Source: Streptomyces sp. NRRL S-87 (GTDB lineage: Bacteria; Actinomycetota; Actinomycetes; Streptomycetales; Streptomycetaceae). Taken from it: DNA of 64,000 bases. Under the pieces are notes generated by a model that was not told the origin of the DNA, ran no database searches, and was given only the letters and a program-made list of their open reading frames with translations. The stretch spans positions 20,670 through 84,669 of the forward strand of contig NZ_JOGB01000037.1 in the NCBI RefSeq assembly GCF_000719335.1, given 5' to 3'. Shown one piece after another: positions 6,289-14,779 of this stretch (positions are counted from its first letter, which is position 1; each line of letters begins with the position of its first letter). Both the position numbers and the translations under genes were made by a program.

Positions 6289-8004
6289 ATGCGCACCGTT
6301 CGCGAAGCCGTGCTCGACGTTCTGCGGACCCGGGGGATGACCACGGTCTTCGGCAACCCCGGCTCCACCGAGCTGCCGATGCTCAAGGACTTCCCCGACG
6401 ACTTCCGTTACGTGCTCGGCCTCCAGGAGGCCGTGGTCGCCGGCATGGCCGACGGCTTCGCGATGGCCACCGGCACCACCGCCCTGGTCAACCTGCACAC
6501 CGCCCCCGGCACCGGCAACGCCATGGGGGCGATCCTCAACGCCCGCGCCAACCGCACCCCCATGGTGGTCACCGCCGGCCAGCAGGTGCGCCCCATGCTC
6601 ACCATGGAGGCCCTGCTCACCAACCCGCAGCCCACACTGCTGCCGCAGCCCGCCGTGAAGTGGGCGTACGAGCCGCCCCGCCCCGCGGACGCGGCCACCG
6701 CCCTCGCCCGGGCCGTGCAGATCGCCGAGACCCCGCCGCAGGGGCCGGTGTTCCTCTCCCTCCCCATGGACGACCTCGACGCGCCCCTCGACGAGGACGA
6801 GGACCGGGCCGCGCGCACCACCGCCGCCCGCCGGGTCCACCACGCGACCCGCCCCGCCCCGGACGCCGTACGCGACCTGGCCGACCGGATCGCCCGCGCC
6901 GCCGACCCCGTCCTCGTCGTCGGCAACGACGTGGACGCCGCGCCCGGCGCCTGGGACGCCGTCGTCGCGCTCGCCGAACGCGCCGCCCTGCCCGTCTGGT
7001 CCGCGCCCACCGAAGGCCGCGTCTCCTTCCCCAAGACCCACCCCCGCTACCGCGGCACCCTGCCCCCGGCCATCGCCCCGCTCGCCCGCTGCCTGGCCGG
7101 GCACGACCTCGTCCTCGTCGTCGGCGCACCGGTCTTCTGCTACTACCCCTACCTGCCCGGCGACTACCTGCCCGAGGGCGCCGCGCTGGTCCTGCTCACC
7201 CGCGACGCCGACGAGGCGGCCCGGGCCCCCGTCGGCGACGCGCTCGTGGCCGACCTCGCGCCGACGGTGCGCGAGCTGGTCCGGGAGCTGGGGGAGCGGG
7301 GACGGGCGTCGGGCGACCGGGCGGCGAAGGCGGGCGACGGCGCGGCGGAAGCGGGCGCGGCGGGGGCGGGCGCCGCAGCAGCGGGCGCGGCGGGGGCGGG
7401 CGCGGCGGAAGCGGGGAACGCCGGCACCGCGGCCACCGAGTCGGGGCAGACCGACGACGGTGCGCTCACCCCGCTCGCCGCCCTCACCGCCGTCGCCCAG
7501 GGCGCCCCCGCCGACACGCTCTGGGTCAACGAGTCCCCGTCGAACCTCCCGCAGTTCCACGAGGCCACCCGCATCAGCCGCCCGCACTCGTTCTTCTTCA
7601 CCGCCGGCGGCGGGCTCGGCTACGGCGCGGCCGCCGCCGTCGGCGCCCAGCTCGGCCGCCCCGACCGGCCCGTGGTCGCCGTCATCGGCGACGGCTCGAT
7701 GCACTACGCCGTCCAGGCCCTGTGGACCGCCGCCGCCTACAAGATCCCCGTCACGTACGTCGTGCTCAGCAACCAGCGGTACGCCATCCTCCACTGGTTC
7801 GCCCAGGTCGAGCGGGCCGCCGGCGCGCCCGGTCTCGACATCCCCGGCCTGGACATCGCCTCCGTCGCCACCGGCTACGGCGTCCGCGCCCACCGCGCCA
7901 CCGGCGCCGGCGAACTCGCCAAGCTCGTCCGGGAGTCCGCCGCCCAGCAGGACGGCCCCGTGCTCATCGACGTACCGGTCACGACGGAACTCCCCTCTCT
8001 CTGA
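6289..8004 (+). CDS. mdlC: ThDP-dependent 2-oxoacid decarboxylase, benzoylformate decarboxylase family
   Basis: This 571-residue enzyme should decarboxylate a 2-oxo acid to an aldehyde. The N-terminal half closely resembles Pseudomonas benzoylformate decarboxylase: FGNPGSTELP with Ser26, cofactor-activating Glu47 and His70 in NLHTAPGTGNAMG all fall at the Pseudomonas positions. The ThDP/Mg site GDGSMHYAVQALW is in the C-terminal domain. Two oddities stand out. The active-site His281 of the model enzyme aligns with Tyr286 (GAPVFCYYPY). An Ala/Gly-rich insertion of about 43 residues (345-387) joins the middle and C-terminal domains and accounts for the extra length over the usual 528. The start was chosen where homology begins. 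It is followed 85 bases on by an FAD 2-hydroxyacid dehydrogenase, the same enzyme pair as in mandelate degradation. Confidence 0.9.
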   Translation: MRTVREAVLDVLRTRGMTTVFGNPGSTELPMLKDFPDDFRYVLGLQEAVVAGMADGFAMATGTTALVNLHTAPGTGNAMGAILNARANRTPMVVTAGQQVRPMLTMEALLTNPQPTLLPQPAVKWAYEPPRPADAATALARAVQIAETPPQGPVFLSLPMDDLDAPLDEDEDRAARTTAARRVHHATRPAPDAVRDLADRIARAADPVLVVGNDVDAAPGAWDAVVALAERAALPVWSAPTEGRVSFPKTHPRYRGTLPPAIAPLARCLAGHDLVLVVGAPVFCYYPYLPGDYLPEGAALVLLTRDADEAARAPVGDALVADLAPTVRELVRELGERGRASGDRAAKAGDGAAEAGAAGAGAAAAGAAGAGAAEAGNAGTAATESGQTDDGALTPLAALTAVAQGAPADTLWVNESPSNLPQFHEATRISRPHSFFFTAGGGLGYGAAAAVGAQLGRPDRPVVAVIGDGSMHYAVQALWTAAAYKIPVTYVVLSNQRYAILHWFAQVERAAGAPGLDIPGLDIASVATGYGVRAHRATGAGELAKLVRESAAQQDGPVLIDVPVTTELPSL

Positions 8005-8089
8005 AGGCCGTGGGCGGGAGTCCCCCTGTGCCCCCGCCCCACGCAGCGCGCCCCTCCCCTGTCCCGCGTACCGTCCGGAAGGCACCGGC

Positions 8090-14522: not shown

Positions 14523-14779
14523 CCACGATCCCGGGCCCGCGCGCCGGGGCCCCGACCGCGCCGGGCGGGACGGCCACCGGCGGCCACCGGCCCCCGGGCG
14601 CCGCCCTGCGCGCCCACGCCGAGTCCCTGCGGACCCAGGCCGACCGCCTCCGCGCGGCCGTCGACGCCCTCGCCTGGACCGGCCCGGACGCCGACGCCCT
14701 CCGCGCCCGCGTCACCGCCCTCGCCACCCGCTGCGACAGGGCGGCGACCGACCTGGCCCGGAGCGCGGAACTGGTGTAG
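14519..14779 (+). CDS. Small WXG-like helical hairpin protein
   Basis: An 86-residue protein whose GTG start overlaps the stop of the haem dioxygenase gene (GTGA). After a Pro/Gly-rich 30-residue leader, two amphipathic Ala/Leu/Arg-rich helices are joined by AWTGPDADAL, giving the W-x-G turn of WXG100 proteins at about residues 53-55. The canonical C-terminal YxxxD/E export motif is missing, so ESX/type VII secretion is uncertain. It may be an assembly or adaptor partner of the cluster enzymes, or of the helical N-terminus of the hydrolase two genes upstream. I do not recognise a specific family; codon usage matches the neighbours. Confidence 0.65.
   Translation: MTTIPGPRAGAPTAPGGTATGGHRPPGAALRAHAESLRTQADRLRAAVDALAWTGPDADALRARVTALATRCDRAATDLARSAELV

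Follow-up and report, generated by a model that had tools for sequence, protein, structure and literature searches.

A stretch of 64,000 nucleotides from Streptomyces sp. NRRL S-87 (GCF_000719335.1, NZ_JOGB01000037.1, positions 20,670-84,669 of the forward strand), hereafter the window, carries an island of six collinear open reading frames (ORFs), A to F, on its + strand at positions 6289-14779. The window has a high guanine-plus-cytosine (GC) content, 68-78%, and is Streptomyces-like judging by its relatives. Taken as a whole, the island is probably an actinobacterial cluster for fatty-acid alpha-oxidation, leading from an acid to its C(n-1) aldehyde. Its genes are as follows:

6289-8004, + strand: A, benzoylformate-decarboxylase-like 2-oxoacid decarboxylase dependent on thiamine diphosphate (ThDP), 571 residues, matching NF005485 and PDB 6qsi
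8090-9487, + strand: B, GlcD/LDHD-type flavin adenine dinucleotide (FAD) 2-hydroxyacid dehydrogenase, 465 residues, FAD_binding_4 plus FAD-oxidase_C
9484-10935, + strand: C, cytochrome P450, 483 residues, GTG start overlapping the stop of B, PF00067
11105-12481, + strand: D, alpha/beta hydrolase with a helical N-terminal half, 458 residues, marginal match to PF06259
12597-14522, + strand: E, homologue of plant-type fatty-acid alpha-dioxygenases, 641 residues, start possibly at 12609, PF03098
14519-14779, + strand: F, small protein of 86 residues with a W-x-G motif, GTG start overlapping the stop of E

The initial annotation described six genes in one direction with GTGA overlaps at two junctions, and this is what the locus holds, the overlaps lying between B and C (9484-9487) and between E and F (14519-14522). 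The other intergenic gaps measure 85 bases (A-B), 169 bases (C-D) and 115 bases (D-E). A simple scan of positions 5900-15000 returned no terminator-like site, which says little because shuffled sequence averages only 1.1.

By its sequence, E is a plant-type fatty-acid alpha-dioxygenase (alpha-DOX) homologue that keeps the key residues of the family. It scores 349 bits against PF03098 (An_peroxidase), and its best solved relatives are the rice alpha-dioxygenase (4kvj, 2e-113; 4kvl, 7e-113) and another alpha-dioxygenase (4hhr, 7e-102); matches to solved structures of other haem enzymes are far weaker, at 5e-24 for lactoperoxidase and 2e-16 for cyclooxygenase (COX). The label first given to E, 'cyclooxygenase/alpha-dioxygenase-like', is therefore kept in its second half and rejected in its first. 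Homology to the rice enzyme extends across about 580 residues, and H188, H348, Y416, H419 and R584 of E align with rice H157, H311, Y379, H382 and R559 (chain numbers minus three). We take H157, Y379 and H382 to be the distal, catalytic and proximal residues of the rice enzyme, roles that the alignment assigns to H188, Y416 and H419 of E, alongside H348 and R584. His311 and Arg559 of rice alpha-DOX are named in the title of a reference. All five residues are invariant in 7/7 aligned relatives from actinobacteria, one cyanobacterium and alphaproteobacteria, and a scan for four motifs of E found all four in 74/88 sequences, the misses including truncated ORFs and pattern variants. We infer that E forms a 2-hydroperoxy product from a fatty acid. 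The same genome carries a second alpha-dioxygenase, about 47-49% identical to E (L009/L099; G000:C6:41449-43149), with an Arg at the place of the distal His. An Exo_endo_phos gene lies downstream of it, and similar copies are found in other Streptomyces-group genomes.

The set to which E belongs is physically linked and co-inherited, across many Streptomyces and a handful of other actinobacteria. Relatives of E were collected by a profile alignment scan of one genome per species, which gave at least 563 confirmed loci, and the best 80 by E alone were retained. Genes A to F were placed around E by tblastn, because in high-GC loci the called ORFs were sometimes in the wrong frame, and identities refer to the best tblastn segment. 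Among these best 80 loci, C lies near E in 39, A in 21, B in 21 and D in 24, and A and B are never found apart; the patterns are ABCD in 19 loci, C only in 14, CD in four, ABC in two, D only in one and none in 40. The association follows the relatedness of E. At an E identity of 75% or more, A, B and C are all present in 13/14 loci; at 60-75%, C is present in 16/17 and A and B in eight; at 54-60%, C is present in 7/8; and below 54%, in 3/41. At 60% or above, C is thus found in 29/31 loci, and both misses (L081 and L034) lie at contig ends, with only 1,562 and 266 bases before E. The co-occurrence check proposed in the initial annotation, as carried out over these 80 loci, does not refute the alpha-oxidation reading.

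A plasmid record from Streptomyces sp. NBC_00069 has all six genes in identical order. In Rhizohabitans, Longispora and Nonomuraea soli, A to E are together in other orders, and in Rhizohabitans and Longispora they are also spread over both strands. Eleven more distant loci, mostly from Solirubrobacterales, Nocardioides and relatives, have C following E on the same strand at 6-157 bases; the P450 alone accompanies E there, and several of these loci are short. Among 61 genomes (that of NRRL S-87 and relatives), 13 hold a match to E, eight a strong one, and two (G000 and G018) the E type of the window. A (E<=1e-100) was found in exactly these two (Fisher p 5e-4; up to 22 candidates per genome were scored). 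Gene distances correlate with those of E at r = 0.97 for A (n = 23), 0.95 for B (n = 23), 0.89 for C (n = 40) and 0.90 for D (n = 25), computed on the best matched segment per gene with the window and L001 included and L009, L034, L043 and L081 excluded. None of 2000 permutations reached values as high, and host relatedness contributes to them.

These data bear on the possibility that two unrelated modules merely adjoin each other, A-B being a catabolic pair for 2-hydroxyacids and C-F an oxylipin or lipid-peroxide module. Such an arrangement would account for the 18 of the 39 C-bearing loci in which A and B are missing, and the gaps at A-B, C-D and D-E would allow separate promoters. Yet C is present wherever A and B occur among the best 80 loci, across four genera and several orders (E is there by construction), among the 61 genomes A is found in the two with the E type of the window, and the E-A distances correlate at r = 0.97. 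We regard two independent modules as quite improbable.

The A-B pair supplies candidates for the lower part of the route. A exceeds the cut-off of the NCBIfam benzoylformate-decarboxylase model NF005485 (620.9 bits against 493) and matches the solved benzoylformate decarboxylase 6qsi at 8e-149. Its catalytic Ser, Glu, His and His, presumably equivalent to Ser26, Glu47, His70 and His281 of benzoylformate decarboxylase, are invariant in 23/23 aligned sequences. The pocket of A differs from that of the aromatic enzyme, because the place of Pseudomonas putida Ala460, which is Ala in 6qsi, is taken by Ile in 22/23 sequences and Val in 1/23; among the A homologues listed, AIL, AVL or GIL occupies this site in 110/120, the other ten falling outside the pattern. 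A is accordingly best filed, as far as sequence allows, as a homologue of benzoylformate decarboxylase and probably not a true one. B combines FAD_binding_4 with FAD-oxidase_C, scores 402.6 bits against the NCBIfam GlcD model, which is under its cut-off of 567.9 and places B in the wider flavoenzyme group only, and matches the solved glycolate oxidase 9qgz (4.8e-106) and mitochondrial D-lactate dehydrogenase 8jdc (3.3e-71). Mouse LDHD acts generally on D-2-hydroxyacids, with activity reported up to 2-hydroxyoctanoate (PMC10589216). The products of alpha-DOX are (R)-2-hydroperoxy and (R)-2-hydroxy acids (PMC8720084), and B would suit an (R)-product because its flavoenzyme group contains D-2-hydroxyacid dehydrogenases.

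The same two enzymes could be read differently, with E acting on phenylacetic or another arylacetic acid, B as an (R)-mandelate dehydrogenase and A as a true benzoylformate decarboxylase that releases benzaldehyde or a relative. The model cut-off passed by A, its close match to a solved benzoylformate decarboxylase and the placement of B within the 2-hydroxyacid flavoenzyme group all agree with this. The Ile or Val that replaces Ala460 in 23/23 sequences, together with the pocket patterns of the wider homologues, argues against it, as do the resemblance of E to fatty-acid alpha-dioxygenases and the best fold match of C, which was crystallised with oleic acid. Neither a mandelate racemase nor a benzaldehyde dehydrogenase was recognised by model among A-F and the neighbouring GNAT gene (wider flanks were not scanned for these). 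An aryl-acetate pathway is thus unlikely.

The role of the P450 is more evenly balanced. C matches PF00067 at 71.2 bits and displays Arg356 of the ExxR motif, the haem ligand Cys431 and, in the I-helix, D309-A310. Its AlphaFold model (predicted local distance difference test score, pLDDT, 89.1) has an I-helix broken at residue 310, and its top Foldseek match is CYP184A1 with oleic acid (7wzm, 8e-16, 22% identity). Profile alignment with CYP184A1 sets AGhETT opposite A-L-gap-D-T of the C family consensus, so that, also by a count from the I-helix end, the acid position of the window's C is D309 and the alcohol position A310. The canonical O2-activation motif [AG]Gx[DE][TS] occurs at the aligned place in 0/41 sequences of this P450 family; four other P450s in the same flanks show AGHET in three cases, the fourth being outside the pattern. 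In CYP74, the I-helix Thr is replaced by Ile, Ala or Val and the oxygen comes from the hydroperoxide (PMC1540422). The lack of the motif in C suggests, without proving, that it likewise consumes a hydroperoxide.

The picture is not uniform across the family. An Asp holds the acid position in 27 of the 41 sequences, a Thr or Ser the alcohol place in 19, and both are present in 15; the idea that the acid-alcohol pair is absent from all relatives of C was consequently rejected. Where C comes directly after E, 10 of 11 loci keep the pair, which counts against hydroperoxide use. C might instead be an ordinary O2-dependent monooxygenase acting in omega, C2 or aldehyde oxidation, with the pathway otherwise unchanged, an option favoured by these retained residues and by the canonical motif that its best fold match, CYP184A1, shows in the alignment. 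Against it stand the absence of that motif from every family member, the presence of Thr or Ser at the alcohol place in only 21/69 of the closest C homologues (the window's own, with Ala, included) and in 9/51 further ones, and the fact that neither a ferredoxin nor a reductase gene is among the six. A monooxygenase is possible, though we are inclined to doubt it, and the chances that C consumes the hydroperoxide of E seem to us about even. The initial proposal that the P450 hydroxylates C2 finds no support, the I-helix favouring hydroperoxide use on evidence that points both ways. A second subgroup of this P450 family (P0070-P0120) exists, in some strains alongside the first. In L108, from one of the genomes that hold C without the E type of the window, the match covers C residues 155-481 only.

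The two remaining proteins are less telling. D reaches 20.8 bits against Abhydrolase_8 (PF06259; cut-off 20.5), a marginal match because no single stretch passes. Its putative catalytic residues are Ser329 in GHSQGG, Asp380 and His410, and its AlphaFold model (pLDDT 84.6) retrieves by Foldseek nothing other than weak alpha/beta-hydrolase matches, the best at 6e-3. GHSxGG is kept in 18/20 aligned D sequences. The Ser is lost in L027 and L029, two of the Streptomyces loci without A and B, and kept in L031 and L036, which have neither gene either. Sequence and fold searches gave nothing firm to sustain the earlier view that D is a lipase releasing the acid. F yielded no Pfam or NCBIfam match at 1e-3, the WXG100/ESAT-6 profile included, so that of its description as 'WXG-like' the W-x-G motif remains and membership of a modelled family does not. 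Twelve loci of the clade to which the window belongs have a counterpart of F at the end of E, as do nine of a second Streptomyces clade, where the W-x-G motif is missing at the corresponding place. L014 and L020, both without D, have no F-like ORF either.

We propose that E takes a free carboxylic acid, probably a fatty acid, and adds O2 to its C2, giving the (R)-2-hydroperoxy acid. C would convert this 2-hydroperoxide to the 2-hydroxy or 2-oxo acid, thereby forestalling spontaneous decarboxylation. B would then oxidise the (R)-2-hydroxy acid to the 2-oxo acid, from which A would release the C(n-1) aldehyde and CO2, while D may supply or trim the acyl substrate and F may assist D or E. The substrates, the order of steps, the reaction of C and the parts played by D and F are all predictions. 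Among the readings considered, alpha-oxidation fits best, on the strength of the homology and residues of E, the enzyme group of B, the catalytic and pocket residues of A and the co-presence of A and B; within it, the C2-hydroxylase step first offered for the P450 is not supported.

Several observations weigh against this proposal. At the cut-offs used, half of the best 80 E loci (40/80) are without any of A-D; they are cyanobacterial, proteobacterial, from metagenome-assembled genomes (MAGs) and also actinobacterial, such as L039 and L080, although absence is weak evidence in some of them, since several loci in the set of 80 are short. Around the Streptomyces paralogue of E, eight stretches taken from seven Streptomyces-group genomes contain no A, B, C or D, and C (E<=1e-30) occurs in 6/61 genomes, four of them without the E type of the window. 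The family of A is named after an aromatic substrate. The A460I change lets the P. putida enzyme accept pyruvate (PMC9063327), which is a small acid and no long one; the use of long chains by A is putative. The activity of mouse LDHD is already weaker at C8 (PMC10589216). D is without the Ser of GHSxGG in L027 and L029, and no aldehyde-consuming enzyme is evident in the cluster.

Unrelated enzymes at other alpha-DOX loci could do similar jobs. Neighbours were tallied at 45 loci, comprising 39 of the 40 at which A-D are missing (all but L034) and a further six on plasmids; ORFs below 110 or above 1300 residues were dropped, at most four were kept per side-class, and 128/164 proximal and 122/128 distal proteins were scanned, the 25 commonest families being listed for each. 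The 128 proximal proteins include seven flavin mononucleotide (FMN) oxidoreductases, five FAD_binding_4 proteins, three RoxA-like cytochromes c, two ThDP enzymes, both at plasmid loci, and one fatty-aldehyde decarbonylase, and the 25 commonest families of the 122 distal proteins include none of them. Candidate functional counterparts thus comprise ThDP enzymes (L004, L007), FAD_binding_4/ALO-type oxidoreductases, patatin, a DyP peroxidase, a fused catalase-like domain and the fatty-aldehyde decarbonylase. In Phyllobacterium, patatin, a ThDP enzyme (annotated in two pieces) and E stand in a row, and the ThDP enzyme of Rhizobium jaguaris is nearest to acetolactate synthase models, under their cut-offs. 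The alpha-dioxygenases of L003, L004, L006 and L007 (Nonomuraea gerenzanensis and rhizobia) bear a long N-terminal extension, of which the one scanned, that of L004, is catalase-like by Pfam (8e-7) and has no NCBIfam match; the RAFH[AS]K motif is present in all four, and only two of them, L003 and L004, also match an Arg-x3-Tyr motif. A neighbour in L065 (Microseira) is a DyP-type peroxidase (106.5 bits, cut-off 100.5). We tentatively suggest a bacterial oxylipin system in which a C2-specific dioxygenase may hand its hydroperoxide to a dedicated adjacent P450, a part that elsewhere might fall to a fused catalase-like domain or a DyP peroxidase.

In L067 (5368-7909), a cyanobacterial alpha-dioxygenase gene converges with that of a fatty-aldehyde decarbonylase, with 61 bases between them. 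Among the cyanobacterial and Chloroflexi loci L065, L061, L067, L086, L058, L060 and L062, the neighbours that recur are proteins of about 306, 148 and 440 residues, a DyP peroxidase cluster, FMN oxidoreductases and RoxA-like cytochromes c.

In the window, a GNAT gene and oligopeptide ATP-binding cassette (ABC) transporter genes flank the island on the opposite strand, the latter on either side (2133-4775 and 14838-20080) and otherwise arranged in relatives. The GNAT gene (E<=1e-60) was found in 5/21 genomes, and stretches of four relatives (G003, G007, G008 and G011) arrange the ABC genes otherwise, so that no clean empty site emerged for an insertion of the island between two oligopeptide ABC operons. 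Genes for Ohr (organic hydroperoxide resistance) and MarR lie upstream of A in six Streptomyces loci (L001, L013, L014, L015, L018 and L020) and have no match within the window; their proximity to A is perhaps local synteny only.

Alpha-oxidation through an alpha-dioxygenase is already known from plants, among them rice, Arabidopsis and Physcomitrella, and E shares the equivalents of the distal and proximal His, the catalytic Tyr, His311 and Arg559 with the rice enzyme. In the plant route, decarboxylation of the hydroperoxide is described as spontaneous (PMC8720084), whereas the island links a hydroxyacid dehydrogenase, a 2-oxoacid decarboxylase, a P450 and a hydrolase to alpha-DOX. The cyanobacterial enzymes CalDOX, LepDOX and CsDOX are bacterial members of the same family as E, and the first two made fatty aldehydes (PMC8720084). 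The cyanobacterial loci among the best 80 differ in being without A-D at the cut-offs used, and nearby genes in some of them encode a DyP peroxidase, an FMN oxidoreductase or a RoxA-like cytochrome c. Fungal linoleate DOX-CYP fusions and the animal pairs of COX with thromboxane or prostacyclin synthase likewise join a haem dioxygenase of the same superfamily to a P450 for which the dioxygenase product may be the substrate (PMC13049297), but the island is bacterial, its genes are separate, and its dioxygenase is expected by family to act at C2.

Two further pathways offer partial parallels. The bacterial mandelate pathway proceeds through MdlB (FMN-type) and then MdlC, and shares with the island the succession of a flavin 2-hydroxyacid dehydrogenase and a benzoylformate-decarboxylase-type ThDP enzyme; it differs in that B is of the GlcD/LDHD type, that the pocket residue of A is another and that the six include no further mandelate gene. 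Mammalian peroxisomal alpha-oxidation works on coenzyme A (CoA) esters and uses a 2-hydroxyacyl-CoA lyase; it too shortens the chain by one carbon via a ThDP enzyme, but no CoA enzyme is found among the six genes.

Sequences of alpha-DOX were noted earlier in Actinobacteria (PMC8720084). The terms 'gene cluster', 'operon' and 'Streptomyces' are absent from the main text of that paper and of the review PMC9305512. In literature searches that covered mostly non-subscription papers and were in part aimed elsewhere, no cluster of this kind was described by title or abstract start, in line with the first impression that no such bacterial set had been described. If our proposal is correct, the island is a bacterial gene set in which every step between acid and aldehyde has its candidate enzyme, and it could find use in making aldehydes from fatty acids. 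It would also represent a coupling of dioxygenase and P450 in bacteria, parallel to the COX cascade of animals and the DOX-CYP fusions of fungi.

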